Shown in pieces: positions 5,779-34,995 of a DNA stretch of 34,995 bases (positions within the stretch are counted from its first letter, which is position 1; every line of letters begins with the position of its first letter). A program made the translations under genes and the position numbers. The stretch covers positions 1 through 34,995 of the forward strand of contig WGCU01000045.1 of the NCBI GenBank assembly GCA_015493635.1. The letters run 5' to 3'. This stretch comes from Spirochaetaceae bacterium. Lineage in GTDB: Bacteria > Spirochaetota > Spirochaetia > B11-G9. The notes under the pieces are model-generated. The model saw nothing but the letters and a program-made list of their open reading frames with translations, did not search any database and was not told the DNA's origin.

Positions 5779-7508
5779 GGAAGGAAGAATTGCAGCAGCG
5801 GATTGAAGAATATCTTAAAAATGAAGATAACACGTATTTTACTGCAGATTTGGAAAAGGTTATTAAAGGCAATGATACTGATGAACTTAATGACAGGTTT
5901 TATACCTCTCTTTCTTTCGGGACAGGGGGGCTCAGGGGGAAAATCGGCGGCGGTTTGAACCGGATGAATCCTTATATAGTACGGAAAGCGACTCAGGGAC
6001 TATCCAACTATATCAGGGAAAATACTTCTACCGGATCTGCTGTTATAGCGTATGATTCTCGTCATTTTTCAGATTTGTTTGCTGATGAAGCAGCCCGTAT
6101 TTTATGCTCCAACGGTATTAAAACCTATCTTTTCTCTTCCCTGCGTCCTACCCCGGTTCTGTCTTTTGCTGTGCGTGAACTCGGAGCAACGGCAGGTATT
6201 GTTGTAACAGCTTCCCATAATCCTGCTGAATATAACGGTTATAAAGTGTACTGGTCCGACGGGGGACAGATCGTTCCTCCTCACGACAGTGGTATTATCA
6301 ATGAAGTTAACGCGGTCGAAGGCCCTTTGAAGCCGATGACAAAGGAAGAAGCATTAAAAAAAGGTCTTCTTGTTATTATTGACAAAGAGATAGATGAGCC
6401 GTTTGTTTCTCTTGTAAAATCATGCAGTATTCGTCCGGAACTATTAAAAACCATGGGAAAAGATCTGAAAATTGTGTATACTCCTCTCCACGGAACCGGG
6501 ACCGTCCTTGTTGAAAGAACCCTGAAAGAGATGGGTGTGCGTGTTCTTACTGTTCCTGAACAGCGGGAACCAGACGGTGATTTTCCCACAGTAAAATATC
6601 CTAATCCAGAGATTGCATCTGCTCTTGAACTGGCCATTGAACTGGCAAAAAAAGAATCTGCTGATATGCTTATGGGGACAGATCCTGATGCAGATCGTCT
6701 CGGCATTGCGGTACCTGATGGAGATACCATCGTTCTTGTTACCGGGAACCAGCTCGGTGCACTTCTTGCTGACTATATCTTTTCATCACGTCAGGAGGTT
6801 GGGAGATTACCTGAAAAAAGTGCTTTTGTTAAAACAATTGTTACGACTGAGCTGCAGAGAATTATTGTGGAGACCTATGGGGTAAAATGCTACGATGTTC
6901 TTACCGGATTTAAATATATCGCGGAAAAGATTAGAGAATTTGAGACAACAGGAGAATCATTTATTTTTGGAGGAGAAGAGAGTTACGGGTATCTTGTTAC
7001 TGACAAGGTTCGTGACAAGGATGCAGTTTCAGCGGCTTTTCTTGCCGTTGAAATGACCTTGTATCACCGGTCAAAAGGGAAAAGCGTTCTCGACCGGCTA
7101 AAAGAACTCTGGAATGAATTCGGGTATTTTGAAGAGCTGCTTATTTCAAGGTATTTTGAAGGGCAGGAAGGAAAAATAATAATGGATAAACTGATGTCTT
7201 CCCTGCGAGACAATCCGCCGAAGGAATTCGGAGGTATTCAGGTAGATCTGATAAAAGACTATAAAACAGGAATGACAATCCATGCTTCCGGTAAAAAAGC
7301 AAATGATATTCAACTCCCCCCATCCAACGTTCTGCAGTTTTATTTAACTGATGGAAGCAAAGTCACCGTCAGACCATCGGGTACAGAGCCAAAGATCAAG
7401 TTCTATGCTTCATGCAGGACAGAAGCAGGTATTCCCCTGGAAAAAGCGAAGGAGATAACACAGATTAAACTACAGGCCATAGAGAAACAGGTGGATGCCC
7501 TACTGTAA
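5775..7508 (+). CDS. Alpha-D-phosphohexomutase (phosphoglucomutase/phosphomannomutase)
   Basis: Enzyme of 577 aa that interconverts hexose 1- and 6-phosphates through a phosphoserine. The catalytic loop TASHNP is at 145-150 (Ser147 carries the phosphate), the metal loop GTDPDADRLG at 301-310, the sugar-binding loop GGEESYG at 399-405, and the phosphate-binding loop RPSGTEPK near 538-545. All four are intact. The length and the extra segment between domains fit the longer bacterial PgcA/PGM2-like group that acts on glucose phosphate and sometimes phosphopentose. AAGGGAG lies 7 nt before ATG 5775. It overlaps gph by four bases and its TAA overlaps the next ATG, so the three genes are one coupled operon. 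It links sugar phosphate metabolism to a c-di-GMP enzyme only by position. Confidence 0.94.
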   Translation: MRKEELQQRIEEYLKNEDNTYFTADLEKVIKGNDTDELNDRFYTSLSFGTGGLRGKIGGGLNRMNPYIVRKATQGLSNYIRENTSTGSAVIAYDSRHFSDLFADEAARILCSNGIKTYLFSSLRPTPVLSFAVRELGATAGIVVTASHNPAEYNGYKVYWSDGGQIVPPHDSGIINEVNAVEGPLKPMTKEEALKKGLLVIIDKEIDEPFVSLVKSCSIRPELLKTMGKDLKIVYTPLHGTGTVLVERTLKEMGVRVLTVPEQREPDGDFPTVKYPNPEIASALELAIELAKKESADMLMGTDPDADRLGIAVPDGDTIVLVTGNQLGALLADYIFSSRQEVGRLPEKSAFVKTIVTTELQRIIVETYGVKCYDVLTGFKYIAEKIREFETTGESFIFGGEESYGYLVTDKVRDKDAVSAAFLAVEMTLYHRSKGKSVLDRLKELWNEFGYFEELLISRYFEGQEGKIIMDKLMSSLRDNPPKEFGGIQVDLIKDYKTGMTIHASGKKANDIQLPPSNVLQFYLTDGSKVTVRPSGTEPKIKFYASCRTEAGIPLEKAKEITQIKLQAIEKQVDALL

Positions 7509-8536
7509 TGAACAGGAATGTGGATGAACTGATACGTAAATATGAATCGGAAATAAAGGATCTTAAGGAACTGCTGGAGATAAGCAAGAGTTTAAGTTCA
7601 AATCTTGAGTACCACTCATTACTTGATTCTCTTCTTTTTGCCTGTATGGGACATGCGCGGGTTACTAAAGCGGGGCTGTTTATAAACAACAAACTTTCCC
7701 ATTCTGATTTTACCCTGTACAGGAATTATGAGGGTTTTAATACTGATAAAAATATCCGTTATGTGATTCCGCAGCATTCTGAAATTGTAAAACTTTTTAA
7801 GGAGCATCCTGTCTGTTATACTATGCCGGAATTATTAAAGGATATACAGAATATAGCAGATATTAAGTCTTTTACCATTCTTGAACCGACGCTTATTATT
7901 CCGATTATCAACAAGGGGAATTTACAGGGGATGATTGTTCTTGGTGAAAAAATCGAAAATATGGAGTTCCCCGAATCTGAAAAGAATTTTCTTTTGAATA
8001 TTGCCGGACTGGCAGCCATAGCCATATACAACGCTTTTTTGTTTGAAGTGTCTACTACCGATATGATGACGAAACTTAAATTACGGCATGTTCTCTTTCA
8101 GACACTTCAGCAGGATTTTAATTCCGACAGAAATCTCCCCCTCTCTCTGTTGATGATGGATATCGACAAGTTTAAAAAGGTTAATGATACCTACGGCCAT
8201 GCTTTTGGTGATATTGTCATAAAAGAGGTTACCTCGGTTATCCGTGGAGGTATACGAATGCAGGATATGGCTGCGCGGTACGGCGGAGAAGAATTTACCG
8301 TTGTTCTGCATAAAATACCGGCGCATGAAGCGTATAAGATAGCGGAAAGAATCAGGCAGAAAGTGGAAAACCTTTCTCTTACTCACAAGGGAACAAGAGT
8401 AAATATTTCACTTTCAGTTGGATTATCTGAATATACTCCCTCTTTGGATGCAAAACCGATGGATCTTATAAAACGTGCCGACCTGGCTCTCTATGAAGCT
8501 AAAAGAAACGGGAGGAACCAGGTTCGGCTGGCATAG
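7508..8536 (+). CDS. GAF-GGDEF diguanylate cyclase
   Basis: Probable c-di-GMP synthase of 342 aa. A short coiled-coil-like start (1-30) leads to a GAF-like sensor domain (about 35-178) and a GGDEF domain (about 183-342). The active-site signature is RYGGEEF (Gly259 to Phe263), a catalytically competent variant. Metal and base residues are in MDIDKFKKVNDTYGH (217-231). A product-inhibition I-site RxxD is at Arg250-Asp253, five residues before GGEEF. There is no signal peptide or membrane segment, so it is cytoplasmic. Its ATG overlaps the phosphohexomutase stop (TAATG at 7506-7510), so translation is coupled. The GAF ligand is unknown. It ends 4 nt from the convergent flavoprotein gene, and no terminator is visible. 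Confidence 0.92.
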   Translation: MNRNVDELIRKYESEIKDLKELLEISKSLSSNLEYHSLLDSLLFACMGHARVTKAGLFINNKLSHSDFTLYRNYEGFNTDKNIRYVIPQHSEIVKLFKEHPVCYTMPELLKDIQNIADIKSFTILEPTLIIPIINKGNLQGMIVLGEKIENMEFPESEKNFLLNIAGLAAIAIYNAFLFEVSTTDMMTKLKLRHVLFQTLQQDFNSDRNLPLSLLMMDIDKFKKVNDTYGHAFGDIVIKEVTSVIRGGIRMQDMAARYGGEEFTVVLHKIPAHEAYKIAERIRQKVENLSLTHKGTRVNISLSVGLSEYTPSLDAKPMDLIKRADLALYEAKRNGRNQVRLA

Positions 8537-13886: not shown

Positions 13887-16151
13887 ATGTTAACAGCACA
13901 GAATGGAAAAAAAGCGGAACATGCCTCTTCTTATGGTGCTGAAAAGCCGTTCGTTGTTTTAAGAGATACACCGGAAGAGGAGCAGGGCTCACTATTCGAC
14001 GGGACTCTGCAGAACCTTATAAAGGAATTTGGTCTCGTCCATCATAAATTTACGACTCCGACAACTGAATTTGACCAGCGTCTTTATGGAAGTACCGATG
14101 GAGTCCTTGAGATATCAAAATCCGGAACGATCATGCATGTTAATGATGCTGTTCGTAACATACTTGCCTATGAGCCGGGGGAACTTGTGCGGAAGAATCT
14201 TTTTCCCATAATTCTTCCTGAATATCATGGTGCATTCAAAATCAGAATCAAGAAAGGGATGGAATCCATCATCTATCAGCGGTTAATTTCTGAAAGTAAA
14301 ATTCTTTTCCGTGCTTATTCAAAACTAAAACGGGTCTTTTCTCTTGAAGCGTACTTTTTTCCGTTGTACCGAAGCGGGGAGATGGTATTTCTTCTCATCA
14401 TGAGGCGGATTACCCAGGATGATGCTCTTGTACGGGAATTAAAGGAAAATGCCCACAATTATGATGCGCTTTCTGAGACTATATCTGAAGTTATTCTGCG
14501 TCTTGATGAACATTTTACCGTTATTTTTGTTAATTCTGCAATCAAGCGTGTTTTTGGATACAGCAGAGAAGAAATCTTGGGGAAACATTTCAAAACACTT
14601 TTCCCCGGAACCGTATTCGACCGTTACAAAGATGAGTTTTCCAAATATTTCTTTATTGATCTTGATCACCGTCACAAATCAGGTTTACGGAGAAGTATAG
14701 AAACCCTGGGTAAAAGTAAAAACAGAGGGATTACGCCTATTGAAATATCCTTCGGGAACTCCAGGAACTATGAGGGACGCTCTGTTACCTGTATTATAAG
14801 GGATATTTCCCAACGGAAAAATACAGAAAGGAAATTACGGCATCTTGCGTTTCATGATAAATTAACAGGATTGGGAAACAGGGATTTATTCAACAGCGAC
14901 ATGGGGATGATCTTTAAAAGTAATGAACAAAAAGAAAAAAATGCTGCATTATTCTTCCTGGATCTGGACGGATTTAAGCAGGTCAATGATACCTTCGGGC
15001 ATGATTTTGGTGATAAACTTCTTATACATACAGCTAAAAGGATTCGCGGAAGCTTACGGGAAACTGATGCTATTTACCGGTTCGGTGGAGACGAATTTGT
15101 TATTCTTATCAATAACATTACCAAGACCAGTGAAGCTGCACTTATCGCCCAGAATGTGCTTAACGAAATACAACGTCCCTACTATCTGGAAAGTATGGGA
15201 ACAACGACTGTCGTTACTATCGGTGTCAGTATTGGTATCGCGATGATTCCTGAGAATGGGAATTCGATATCAGAAATTGTCAAAAATGCTGACCTGGCTA
15301 TGTACAGTGCAAAAACAAGCGGTAAAAACCGGTTCGTTTTTTACCATACTCATTTAAACTCTGCCGCTCAGGAGCGATGGGATATAGAACAGGGATTAAA
15401 AAATGCCATCACTCATGAAGAACTGCAGATGTATTATCAGCCTATTGTAACTCCTGATGGAACGGTTAAGGGGTTTGAAGCGCTTATACGGTGGTTTCAT
15501 CCTGTGCGGGGATTAATTTCTCCTGCAAAATTTATACCTATAGCTGAAGAAAGCGGTATTATAAAAACCCTCGGGGTGTGGATCATGGAAAACTCATGCA
15601 GAGATCTACACACTATAAATGAAAGTGGTTACGGTAATTTGTATGTATCTTTCAATCTTTCGGCAGTACAATTTAATCAAACAGATCTTGCTGAAAGAAT
15701 TGCAAACGTTATACAGCGGACAGAAGCACGGACTGAAAATCTCCGTCTTGAGATTACCGAGACAAGTATTGTAAAAATGCCTGAGAGGGTTGTTAACGTC
15801 ATTACAAGTTTGAAGCGGCAGTATCCGAAAATAAAGTTTGTTCTTGATGATTTTGGAACAGGGTATTCGTCTCTGAGTTATCTCTCCCGTATGCCTATTG
15901 ACAGTCTCAAGATAGACATTTCTTTTGTTCGAAAATTATTTGAGCCAATGAATCTAAAGGTAGTTACGGCAATTATGAACCTTGCAAACAGCCTCCAGCT
16001 TAATATTGTCGCTGAAGGTGTGGAAGGAACGAAAGAACGTGATTTTTTCAAGGAAAAAGGATGTAATGCTCTGCAGGGTTTTCTGTTCGCGAAACCTATG
16101 CCTTTCAGCGATATCATGGATAGATTAAGATCTGGTGCACTTAAGAGCTGA
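13887..16151 (+). CDS. PAS-PAS-GGDEF-EAL c-di-GMP enzyme
   Basis: Cytoplasmic bifunctional c-di-GMP protein of 754 aa. The order is a PAS-like domain (about 70-175), a PAS domain (about 190-308), GGDEF (about 315-487) and EAL (about 500-750). The synthase site FGGDEF is intact (GGDEF at 400-404), with an I-site RETD at 391-394. The phosphodiesterase site is also intact by eye: FEALIRW (530-536), NLSAVQFN, LEITET (621-626), DDFGTGYSS (654-662), Lys675 and EGVE (710-713). Either activity may dominate, and sequence cannot tell which. No membrane segment. ATG 13887 has AAAGGGA 4 nt upstream. Its 3' end overlaps the small convergent gene by 27 nt. Confidence 0.94.
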   Translation: MLTAQNGKKAEHASSYGAEKPFVVLRDTPEEEQGSLFDGTLQNLIKEFGLVHHKFTTPTTEFDQRLYGSTDGVLEISKSGTIMHVNDAVRNILAYEPGELVRKNLFPIILPEYHGAFKIRIKKGMESIIYQRLISESKILFRAYSKLKRVFSLEAYFFPLYRSGEMVFLLIMRRITQDDALVRELKENAHNYDALSETISEVILRLDEHFTVIFVNSAIKRVFGYSREEILGKHFKTLFPGTVFDRYKDEFSKYFFIDLDHRHKSGLRRSIETLGKSKNRGITPIEISFGNSRNYEGRSVTCIIRDISQRKNTERKLRHLAFHDKLTGLGNRDLFNSDMGMIFKSNEQKEKNAALFFLDLDGFKQVNDTFGHDFGDKLLIHTAKRIRGSLRETDAIYRFGGDEFVILINNITKTSEAALIAQNVLNEIQRPYYLESMGTTTVVTIGVSIGIAMIPENGNSISEIVKNADLAMYSAKTSGKNRFVFYHTHLNSAAQERWDIEQGLKNAITHEELQMYYQPIVTPDGTVKGFEALIRWFHPVRGLISPAKFIPIAEESGIIKTLGVWIMENSCRDLHTINESGYGNLYVSFNLSAVQFNQTDLAERIANVIQRTEARTENLRLEITETSIVKMPERVVNVITSLKRQYPKIKFVLDDFGTGYSSLSYLSRMPIDSLKIDISFVRKLFEPMNLKVVTAIMNLANSLQLNIVAEGVEGTKERDFFKEKGCNALQGFLFAKPMPFSDIMDRLRSGALKS

Positions 16152-24765: not shown

Positions 24766-25182
24766 TTAATTTCTTGCCGGTAGTTTGCTGACTTCAGCAG
24801 ATATCTTCTTTGCAAGTCTGTCTACATCTTCAGCATCAAAATCAAGGGTGGGAACTTTATCTACTCCTTCCTTTGCTATGGTTATCTCGTAGGACGGGAT
24901 AATGTTCTTGTCACGGACAATCTTTGATGCACAGTTGTTCTGACAACCGTTAATAATAATGAGTTTCCGGGACTTTTCCGCTATAGCAACATGCGGCTTT
25001 GAGTTAGCACCAACCGCTGCTAGACAGCACATCCGCGCCTCTGCATTTTCCCTTGTCAGTTTTACCGCTACTTCGTGTCCTACCTGACCCACCGAAGCAG
25101 CTCCATCACATGCCAGAATAATATCCAGCCCTTCAGTTTCCTGACTGCATTTTTGTAGTAATTGCCAGTTTTCTTTACTCAT
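24766..25182 (-). CDS. DGC-type putative zinc-binding protein (copy 1)
   Basis: Cytoplasmic protein of 138 aa of the DGC-domain group often annotated putative zinc-binding protein. Conserved cysteine sites are ILACDGAASVGQVG (about 22-35), ARMCCLAAVGANSKPHVAI (about 49-67) and INGCQNNCASK (about 76-86). The name-giving Asp-Gly-Cys is Asn-Gly-Cys here, while copy 2 at 28410 keeps Asp-Gly-Cys. The molecular function is unknown, and the cysteines may hold zinc or another soft metal. ATG 25182 has AAGGAG about 8 nt upstream. Its promoter contains an ArsR-type operator matching the one at the flavoprotein. It is convergent with that gene and divergent from arsR2. Confidence 0.82.
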   Translation of the reverse strand: MSKENWQLLQKCSQETEGLDIILACDGAASVGQVGHEVAVKLTRENAEARMCCLAAVGANSKPHVAIAEKSRKLIIINGCQNNCASKIVRDKNIIPSYEITIAKEGVDKVPTLDFDAEDVDRLAKKISAEVSKLPARN

Positions 25183-28409: not shown

Positions 28410-28859
28410 ATGGAAAAGAAGAATATAGAAGATATAAAAACAAATTCTGCACGGAACACGATAATAAATCAGCATAAAAAATTTGGGAAAACAATTAGTG
28501 TAAACGGATGTTTCGGGAGCTCAAACATAGGGCAGAAAGCAGGTTTTATTGCCAGAGAAATAGTACGGGATGTACCCAATGCGTTTATGCGCTGTCCAAT
28601 AGCCGCTTTCCCTGAAGTAGAAGGGCCTACTCAGGTTCTCCTTCATGATGACTATCATGTAGTTATTGATGGCTGTGAGGCACGATGTCTTAGGAAAAGT
28701 TATGAAAAACTCGGGCTGGATGTATCACTCAGTTATGCTCTTGACGAACATTTTGCATGTGAAAAAAAGCCGGGACCGGACTTTGATGAGAAAAAGATGC
28801 AGGATATTTCCCGTAGTATTTTGAAGGATATTAAGGATAAATTGTTAAACGATAGGTAA
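28410..28859 (+). CDS. DGC-type putative zinc-binding protein (copy 2)
   Basis: Cytoplasmic protein of 149 aa related to copy 1 at 24766 but clearly diverged. Conserved sites are ISVNGCFGSSNIGQKAG (about 29-46), AFMRCPIAAFPEVEGP and VVIDGCEARCLRKSYEK, the last holding the Asp-Gly-Cys signature. A further cysteine (HFACEKK) follows. These positions could form a metal or redox site, but no activity is known. AAGGAG lies 7 nt before ATG 28410. Last gene of the ArsR2 operon. No terminator is seen after it. Confidence 0.82.
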   Translation: MEKKNIEDIKTNSARNTIINQHKKFGKTISVNGCFGSSNIGQKAGFIAREIVRDVPNAFMRCPIAAFPEVEGPTQVLLHDDYHVVIDGCEARCLRKSYEKLGLDVSLSYALDEHFACEKKPGPDFDEKKMQDISRSILKDIKDKLLNDR

Positions 28860-29160: not shown

Positions 29161-30408
29161 ATGGGTAAAATACTGCACCTGGAAAACGCAGTGCTTTTTA
29201 GAAAAATTATAAAAAATATTGTTATATCCAAAGGTTTTGAAGTTTTTGCTACTGCAAACAGTACTGAAGCGATGGAAATATTGGATAAGAATGAAATCAA
29301 TCTGATTATAACTGGAAATGTGCTCGAAGATACTACTGGACTGGAATTTGTGGAAAAAATCAGTAAAAGTAGATTTTCATCAATACCTGTCATTCTTCTT
29401 ACATCTACAGATTCCCTGGAAATGCGGGAAAAACTCTTTTCCCTTGGAATAATAGACTATATTTTAAAGAAGGATATTACGCAATCAAGGCTTTCAACAT
29501 ATTTTGACGCTCTCGTAGCTGAAGATTCTCTCCTCCAGCAGATACGTAATACAAATATTGCGGTTCTGGATGACAGTAAATTTGGCCTGGAAGTGATTAA
29601 AAAAATATTTGAATTACACGCTATTACGAAAGTTGGTTTTTTCCTTGAACCTGAAGAGCTTCTTAATAAATCATCAGAATATTCAATTTTTTTTGTTGAT
29701 CTTGTAATGCCGGGTATTTCAGGAGAAGAAGTTATTGTGCAATTACGAAAAGCAAAACCGAATTGTGTTATTATTGTTGTTTCGAGCATTCAGAACTATC
29801 GGACTATTTCAAACGCATTGATGTATGGTGCAAATGATTATATCAGTAAACCGTTTGATAATGGAATGTTTATGGCGCGATTAAAGGCAAATGCTCGTTC
29901 CTATTTTCTCTATAAGCAGCTGGAGAAAAAAGCTGTTACCGATGGGCTGACAGGTCTATATAATCACCGGTATATCTGTGATTATGTTGCAAGAATGATT
30001 GATAAAAAAAGGAATGAGGGGAAAACGTTTTGTGTTCTCCTTATGGATATAGACCATTTTAAACTGGTCAATGATACCTATGGTCATCAAGCTGGAGATA
30101 GTGTATTAATATCCATTGCCAGATTATTTATCGATACCTTTAGCAGTGAAGTAGTCTGCGGTCGTTATGGAGGAGAAGAGTTTTTAATAGTGTTGGATGG
30201 TATGTCCTTGGCAAACGGAATAATTGCGGCAGAAACGGTAAGAAAGAATGTTGAAAAGACTTCCTATACTGAAAAGAATTTAAAAATATCAATAAGCGGA
30301 GGAATTCTAGAGCATTCAAGTGAATCTGCAATGGAAATAATCAGGAAAGCTGATGATCTTCTCTATAAAGCAAAAAAAAATGGCCGAAACAGGATAGTAT
30401 CCGAGTAG
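29161..30408 (+). CDS. REC-REC-GGDEF response regulator, diguanylate cyclase
   Basis: Cytoplasmic regulator of 415 aa with a PleD-like layout. Receiver 1 (about 1-118) lacks the phospho-acceptor: LIITGNVLEDTTG has Gly52 where Asp is expected, and the acidic pair near the start is LEN. Receiver 2 (about 131-248) is complete, with Asp137/Asp138, Asp180 in FFVDLVMPG, Ser208 and Lys230 in YISKPFD. The GGDEF domain (about 255-415) has a competent RYGGEEF (337-341) and MDIDHFKLVNDTYGH. No RxxD I-site is present before it. CGGAG lies 9 nt before ATG 29161. It is transcribed alone. A sensor kinase partner is not in the window. Confidence 0.92.
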   Translation: MGKILHLENAVLFRKIIKNIVISKGFEVFATANSTEAMEILDKNEINLIITGNVLEDTTGLEFVEKISKSRFSSIPVILLTSTDSLEMREKLFSLGIIDYILKKDITQSRLSTYFDALVAEDSLLQQIRNTNIAVLDDSKFGLEVIKKIFELHAITKVGFFLEPEELLNKSSEYSIFFVDLVMPGISGEEVIVQLRKAKPNCVIIVVSSIQNYRTISNALMYGANDYISKPFDNGMFMARLKANARSYFLYKQLEKKAVTDGLTGLYNHRYICDYVARMIDKKRNEGKTFCVLLMDIDHFKLVNDTYGHQAGDSVLISIARLFIDTFSSEVVCGRYGGEEFLIVLDGMSLANGIIAAETVRKNVEKTSYTEKNLKISISGGILEHSSESAMEIIRKADDLLYKAKKNGRNRIVSE

Positions 30409-33560: not shown

Positions 33561-34658
33561 GTGAGTGGAATAAAACTTTCAAATATATCGAAATCGTACA
33601 GCGGAATTCCCGCTGTACGTTCTCTTTCCCTGGAAATTAATGAAGGAGAATTTGTTACTTTGCTTGGCCCTTCAGGCTGTGGGAAAACGACGACACTGAG
33701 AATGATAGCAGGTTTGGAAGATGCTGATGATGGAGAAATATCAGTAGGTGAACATGTTTTCTATTCCCGGGAGAAAGGGTTATATGTACCGCCAGAGAAA
33801 CGAAAATTAGGTTTCATTTTCCAGAGCTACGCTCTGTGGCCTCATATGACGGTTCGTGGAAATATTGCTCTTGGTCTTGAAGAGAAAAAAATACCTAAAA
33901 AAGAAATAAATGATATCATCTCAAGAGTTTTAACAAAAGTACAATTGTCTGGACTGGAAAACAGGTACCCATCAGAACTCTCCGGAGGGCAGCAGCAGAG
34001 AGTAGCTGTTGCCAGAATGATAGCTTTTGAACCGGAAATATTCCTCATGGATGAACCACTGTCGAATCTTGATGCCATGTTGCGGATTGATATGAGAACA
34101 GAACTTAAAAGGCTGCATCAGGAACTTTCGGCGACTACCGTTTATGTTACACATGATCAAAATGAAGCCCTGACGCTTTCGGATAGAATTGCAGTTATGT
34201 ATGACGGAGAAATTAGGCAGATCGGAACGCCAAAAGAAATCTACTATAAACCCGCTGATTTATTTGTTGCCAGATTTGTCGGCAGCCCGAGAATTAATTT
34301 ACTAAAGGGTAGAATAGGAAGCGAAGGAGGAAAAGCAAAATTCTTTTTTAAATCAAAGGGAATAGTACTGCCTGCACATACATTATTTTCTTCTGCAAGT
34401 GTTATTGCTGCTATAAGACCTGAAGATATAACTATCAGTTCAAAACAGGTTCCAGGTTCTTTCGAGGGGATTGTCTTTTCTGTTCTACCAGCAGGTTCAG
34501 AAACCATAATCTATATACATTGCTGTGATACAACTATTACGTTGAAAGTTAATGGTTTTTCCTCCTTAGTGGAGGATGAAAAAATATGGATACAGCTGCC
34601 ACCTGATAAGATGAATTTCTATGATCCTGAAAGCGAACAAATTCTCAGTAATTACTAG
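33561..34658 (+). CDS. ABC importer ATP-binding protein (FbpC/PotA-like)
   Basis: Cytoplasmic ATPase of 365 aa driving the importer. Walker A is GPSGCGKTT (36-44), the Q-loop is FQSYALWPH (about 88-96), the signature is LSGGQQQRV (about 138-146), Walker B is FLMDEPLSNLDA (about 160-171) and the switch histidine is in VTHDQNEA (about 195-202). A C-terminal TOBE-like regulatory domain (about 245-365) follows, with IAAIRPEDI. Length matches FbpC/PotA types. The start is GTG 33561, with AAAGGA 6 nt upstream. It is ten bases after the binding protein gene. After the stop come about 67 nt in which I see no terminator, and then the interrupted HD-GYP remnant. Confidence 0.94.
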   Translation: MSGIKLSNISKSYSGIPAVRSLSLEINEGEFVTLLGPSGCGKTTTLRMIAGLEDADDGEISVGEHVFYSREKGLYVPPEKRKLGFIFQSYALWPHMTVRGNIALGLEEKKIPKKEINDIISRVLTKVQLSGLENRYPSELSGGQQQRVAVARMIAFEPEIFLMDEPLSNLDAMLRIDMRTELKRLHQELSATTVYVTHDQNEALTLSDRIAVMYDGEIRQIGTPKEIYYKPADLFVARFVGSPRINLLKGRIGSEGGKAKFFFKSKGIVLPAHTLFSSASVIAAIRPEDITISSKQVPGSFEGIVFSVLPAGSETIIYIHCCDTTITLKVNGFSSLVEDEKIWIQLPPDKMNFYDPESEQILSNY

Positions 34659-34725: not shown

Positions 34726-34845
34726 TTAGATTGATAATTTCTTTTTAATACGTAGGATTTTATCCTTTTCCTTAAAGAAAATATCTACCAGATCAGGGTC
34801 AAAATGCTTTCCTTTACCTTCTTCTATTATTCGGTTAATCTTGTC
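34726..34845 (-). pseudogene. HD-GYP phosphodiesterase C-terminal remnant
   Basis: The minus-strand frame gives about 39 codons ending at TAA (34726-34728). It reads INRIIEEGKGKHFDPDLVDI, the typical final segment of HD-GYP c-di-GMP phosphodiesterase domains, where FDP-x-LV follows the metal site. The catalytic HD and GYP residues are missing. The frame is cut at 34845/34846, exactly where an IS66-type terminus GTAAGCG begins. The 5' part should lie on the other side of the element, outside the window. The ATG at 34873-34875 belongs to the element, not to the original gene. Confidence 0.7.
34838..34845. other. Candidate 8-bp target duplication of the IS66-type element
   Basis: ATCTTGTC lies directly beside the presumed element end at 34846. 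IS66 family elements make 8-bp duplications, so the same 8 bp should follow the far end outside the window. This is predicted, not seen. Confidence 0.4.
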
Positions 34846-34995
34846 GTAAGCGTCAAATCTACCCCGTCTTGACATCAGCTTGAATCATTTCTCTCTACTA
34901 ATTTAAGAGGGGGAACACCTTCCATATTCCAGGGTAAAAGCCTTTCAAGATCTTCTTTTCTTTCAGCTTCCGGTATTTTCTCAAAGAGCTTTTCC
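34846..34995 (-). mobile_element. IS66-family insertion sequence, partial
   Basis: The element enters from the right edge. Its end is marked by GTAAGCGTC at 34846-34854. IS66 elements have termini starting GTAA, often GTAAGCG. The transposase reading frame inside runs towards this end on the minus strand and stops 29 nt before it. The rest of the element is outside the window. Confidence 0.7.
34875..34994 (-). CDS. IS66-family transposase, C-terminal end (partial at window edge)
   Basis: The last 39 codons of a frame that continues past the window. It reads LFEKIPEAERKEDLERLLPW then NMEGVPPL and stops at 34875-34877. A short leucine-rich helix followed by LLPW is the hallmark of the IS66 transposase C-terminus. 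The catalytic DDE part would lie outside the window. The neighbouring GTAAGCG terminus supports the assignment. It cannot be told here whether the transposase is intact. Confidence 0.68.
   Translation of the reverse strand, partial: EKLFEKIPEAERKEDLERLLPWNMEGVPPLKLVERNDSS

Follow-up and report, generated by a model that had tools for sequence, protein, structure and literature searches.

What interrupts the HD-GYP gene whose 3' end lies at the right edge of this stretch of DNA, and how much of its product would survive the interruption? The stretch analysed, 34,995 nucleotides long and called the window here, is an entire contig (G000:C45, hereafter C45) of a genome assembled into 101 contigs and 3.27 Mb. 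Its right edge is an assembly break within a mobile element, and it is the contig end, not the window, that cuts the element. The features of the window on which the question turns, together with its c-di-GMP genes, are the following:

7508..8536, plus strand: GGDEF protein, with a weak GAF match below its cut-off.
13887..16151, plus strand: PAS-GGDEF-EAL protein.
29161..30408, plus strand: receiver-receiver-GGDEF protein.
33561..34658, plus strand: uninterrupted gene of an ABC transporter ATPase, next to the HD-GYP tail and convergent with it.
34726..34845, minus strand: 3' part of the receiver + HD-GYP gene that the element interrupts, covering D315-K316, I317-I353, the HFDP motif and the stop codon (from the joined frame, the orthologue alignment and the tail comparison).
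34838..34845, no strand: target-site duplication ATCTTGTC, copy 1; copy 2 lies outside the window.
34846..34870, plus strand: the element's right inverted terminus, beginning GTAAGCGT.
34875..34995, minus strand: 3' end of an IS66-type transposase gene that runs off the contig; its last 39 residues, before the stop, include LLPW.

Three GGDEF proteins had been noted in this segment, and all are confirmed in the window, one of them also carrying an EAL domain. Elsewhere in the window, two small Cys-containing proteins (24766-25182 and 28410-28859) presumably resemble DGC-type putative zinc-binding domains, and the frames between them look like what we take to be an ArsR-type regulator, a permease and a chromate transporter.

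At the junction 34845/34846, the minus-strand HD-GYP tail (HFDPDLVDI...) abuts the start of GTAAGCGTC, and the meeting point of tail and element, which the original prediction had set at 34846, is thereby placed to the base. The transposase C-terminus with LLPW that had been noticed at the window edge was read as the 39-residue minus-strand tail listed above, its stop codon occupying 34875-34877. A mechanical 49-residue putative frame (window 34726-34875, minus strand) starts in the element and reads across the junction into the HD-GYP tail.

The original prediction also called for a matching inverted end, a second copy of the duplicated octamer and the 5' part of the HD-GYP gene beyond the window, and each of these was located on another contig, C1. 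Positions 1-150 of C1 are the opposite terminus of the element, which matches the C45 terminus in inverted orientation at 23 of 25 bases. ATCTTGTC, proposed as an 8-bp duplication from its C45 copy, recurs directly outside that terminus at G000:C1:151-158, and beyond it the minus strand of C1 encodes residues 1-316 of a receiver + HD-GYP protein. When the C45 and C1 flanks are joined with a single copy of the duplication, one open frame of 353 residues results, in which the two pieces follow each other in the orthologous frame with no gap, and with no overlap apart from the duplication; the joined protein is collinear, over its full length, with the uninterrupted orthologues (L119, L120 and L121). 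In the genome-wide HD_5 search, which returned 14 matches, the C1 match (165-566) ends at profile position 149 of 170, near the contig end; a weak match on C79 (16-116) also stops short of the profile end, and it is not at a contig end. An IS66-family element is almost certainly inserted in codon 317 of this 353-codon gene, with duplication of ATCTTGTC. The linkage of C45 to C1, as reconstructed from sequence, rests on the duplication, the frame and homology rather than on a spanning read.

This is not the only copy of the element in the genome. A pattern search allowing up to 3 mismatches found six ends, namely three left ends (C1, C85 and C96), two right ends (C45 and C72) and one solo divergent end (C89). 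The three copies of the left end show no difference over 145-150 bases, nor do the two copies of the right end over 149 bases, and from this identity we infer that transposition was recent. A second insertion is present at G000:C96:32373-32380 and C72:150-157 (L032 and L003) with its own 8-bp duplication, GTAGCATT, and it is the sharing of this octamer that makes C96 and C72 the two sides of one event. A frame that matches AAA_14 in part runs into the left end of the element on C96. The third left end, G000:C85:1-145 (L033), is flanked by CATCATAA, for which no right-end partner was found in the assembly. The solo end is of right type, at G000:C89:16829-16851 (L034 4830-4852), between two long frames; no transposase-like frame is evident there in the frame list. 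In addition, relics of related IS66 elements were observed at G000:C18:734-884 (L035), where a left end of 73% identity occurs with the start of a first frame, and at G000:C19:3-569 (L018), which holds the C-terminal part of another IS66 transposase.

Little of the element's interior is available. In its left end an ATG lies 81 bases inside, is preceded by GGAGGG and opens a 23-residue frame that reaches the contig edge. Searches of this one genome found neither TnpB nor the catalytic part of the element's TnpC in the assembly, and the element's own IS66 transposase domain was likewise not found there, the sole match being that on C19, which belongs to a different element with the tail LLPWSIGN. 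For comparison, the IS66 copies of an Agrobacterium study are about 2.56 kb long (PMC6778807). Outside this genome, the left end gave one 30-base match among 58 other relatives, and the right-end DNA gave matches of 24-40 bases in at least four of the 391 other genomes sampled from the phylum, the best two candidates being taken per genome; no exact copy of a 34-base stretch of the element was found in viral contigs.

Each of the five contigs that carry a full-strength end stops 145-150 bases into the element and none spans it, a pattern that would also be seen if assembly error or recombination between element copies had brought together HD-GYP pieces that do not flank one and the same insertion. 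The flanks, however, speak against such a misjoin. Three left and two right ends give six pairings, two of which, C45/C1 included, match at 8 of 8 bases and the other four at only 0-3 of 8; because of this difference, and because the joined frame aligns end to end with the orthologues, chance is a poor explanation. The pieces moreover complete a single frame as described above, and a misjoin is considered very improbable. Even less probable is that the inserted DNA is another DDE element with similar ends that does not belong to IS66. The family was assigned from the ends, the duplication and a short, sub-cut-off C-terminal match because the interior is absent from the assembly, and only 39 transposase residues and the 23 residues of the left-end frame are at hand for judging it. 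The 39-residue piece matches the Pfam 'IS66 C-terminal element' with an E-value of 8.8e-05 and 23.1 bits, below the curated cut-off of 30 and over only 21 of 39 profile positions, and the 23-residue frame has no IS66 match in Pfam. Against these points, the IS66 C-terminal element is the only Pfam match of the 39-residue piece at E up to 1, and its two matches in plasmids, weak as they are (E 0.5 and 0.9), are both annotated as IS66 family transposase. The terminal inverted repeats of the IS66 family have a consensus start of GTAA, with which both ends of the element, beginning GTAAGCGT, also start. Moreover, an 8-bp duplication accompanies two of the two insertions with both sides known (ATCTTGTC and GTAGCATT). 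Both traits have counterparts in named members, since the ends of ISPsko1 (IS66 family) begin GTAAGCGT (PMC12888890) and ISDrpg6 (IS66 family) makes 8-nt duplications (PMC10017437). GTAA is not universal in the family, however: the ISDrpg6 ends start GTCT (PMC10017437). Taken together, the GTAAGCGT ends, the 8-bp duplications and the short LLPW C-terminal match fit the IS66 family. The insertion is an ordinary event, caused by an as yet unnamed member of a family already known.

Of the seven other genomes of the family, three carry an orthologue of the interrupted gene, in each case an open frame of 355 residues with 66-68% identity to the 5' part. The next-best score in the seven genomes belongs to a match with 46% identity over nearly the full length, and single-domain matches reach higher identity over shorter stretches; among the 80 named loci listed, the best E-value is that of a locus in a Spirochaetales MAG (44% identity), which suggests a spirochaete-like genome. 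The same genome as the interrupted gene holds a close paralogue on C79, which is uninterrupted and 58% identical. The tail of the interrupted gene most resembles those of the three orthologues and this paralogue (19-22 of 35-36 residues identical), whereas the tails of the other loci compared share at most 14 identical residues with it. Tail similarity alone would not single out the interrupted gene, because the C79 paralogue outscores two of the three orthologue tails against the lost 37 residues.

The gene forms a pair with that of a large hybrid histidine kinase, which it follows directly and overlaps slightly. The HD-GYP start is predicted at C1 1100, within the last part of a 1,176-codon frame (C1 1084-4611, stop 1081-1083) with PAS, HisKA, HATPase and receiver domains, and an Hpt domain was detected when the last 326 residues of the kinase frame were scanned alone. 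A kinase counterpart (45-48% identical) adjoins the orthologue in the stretches of all three relatives, one match ending at a contig edge. The ABC transporter gene and the other window genes beside the tail are not beside the orthologues in these three stretches, and synteny therefore supports the C1 side alone.

What the insertion leaves of the protein can be read at the junction, GAC AAG ATG TAA, in which the final G and the stop are supplied by the element. On transposition into codon 317, with the 8-bp target ATCTTGTC duplicated, the GTAA end of the element completes an ATG codon and then provides a TAA stop, and the product is 316 native residues plus Met, with 37 of 353 residues lost from the C-terminus, HFDP among them. 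The coding ends of the element, that is, the left start codon and the right transposase tail, run in the same direction as the HD-GYP gene. Pfam assigns receiver and HD domains to the interrupted protein, HD_5 at 84.9 bits. When an orthologue is aligned to PmGH (4mcw), the eight metal-ligand positions and the counterparts of PmGH R314 and K317 all precede the cut, and the metal positions are kept as D-T-G-x-H, HD, H, HHE and D. The position of PmGH E185 is Asp in the interrupted protein, a replacement that the PmGH report counts with the trinuclear E/D-T-G subfamily (PMC4159591). In place of HHExxDGxGYP the protein has HHEKWDGTGYA, the final Pro being missing, and it is therefore classed as HD-GYP-like rather than as a c-di-GMP phosphodiesterase of proven activity. 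The Pro is missing in four of six aligned relatives, the three orthologues (GYI) and the C79 paralogue (GYL), and GYP is intact in L127 and L134, which are more distant. Replacement of the GYP Pro (GYA, GYI or GYL) with the metal positions kept thus recurs across this receiver + HD-GYP group (G000:C1:150-1100, L119-L121 and the paralogue L126).

It had been proposed that the insertion would remove a c-di-GMP phosphodiesterase; this claim is overstated, in that the last 37 of 353 codons are lost and the metal-ligand positions remain. The truncated protein may even be still active and the insertion nearly neutral, given that the counterparts of the eight PmGH metal ligands, R314 and K317 are retained and that PmGH showed no substantial drop in activity when P286, R314 or K317 was replaced by alanine (PMC4159591). 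Because P286A behaves in this way, the missing GYP Pro does not prove inactivity either. Retained activity is nonetheless unlikely. All three orthologues still have the segment that is lost here, and an F(D/Q)P tail occurs in six of the 13 other HD_5 loci, the remaining loci being without such a match in the tail comparison. The same report describes two extra C-terminal helices in PmGH, the last of which, alpha12, packs against alpha6 and alpha10 of the core (PMC4159591). From its place at the chain end, the lost HFDP segment should correspond to these closing helices, and by this analogy the truncation probably harms folding. The truncated protein, with its receiver and metal-ligand positions and without the HFDP segment, would then be destabilized, and its activity may be abolished; judged from the sequence, impaired function is likely. 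The output of the kinase/HD-GYP pair would be lost or reduced. A reversible or adaptive remodelling is very unlikely, in which the GTAA stop would give a stable metal-binding HD-GYP protein of altered activity, the kinase would still phosphorylate it and excision would restore the long form.

Genome-wide, there are 16 GGDEF, 3 EAL and 14 HD_5 matches, the interrupted gene included; besides it, 13 HD_5 matches are left, one of them weak, and the c-di-GMP level may well stay the same when a single HD-GYP gene is lost. A kinase/HD-GYP pair that is conserved in relatives has its HD-GYP output gene truncated here, which matters mainly for counting functional c-di-GMP genes in this genome. The finding also documents, in a spirochaete-like genome, an IS66-family element with two insertions known from both sides and a further left end, and it explains the contig break. 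Beyond annotation, its value is little.

Compared with known systems, the element resembles ISPsko1 in its GTAAGCGT ends (PMC12888890) and differs from it in that the termini diverge after the first 8-9 bases. It is like ISDrpg6 in the length of its duplication and unlike it in starting GTAA instead of GTCT (PMC10017437). Its short transposase piece with LLPW matches the IS66 C-terminal element below the cut-off, and in the 391 other genomes sampled from the phylum, at the best two candidates each, no match to its right-end DNA exceeds about 40 bases. As for the interrupted protein, it is closest to the receiver + HD-GYP response regulators, with which it has the receiver and HD domains in common. 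PmGH (4mcw), the nearest solved HD-GYP protein by sequence, shares with it the metal positions of the HD domain, and the HFDP tail is a feature of the uninterrupted orthologues. Unlike PmGH, the protein is interrupted after residue 316 of 353 and carries GYA as its GYP motif.
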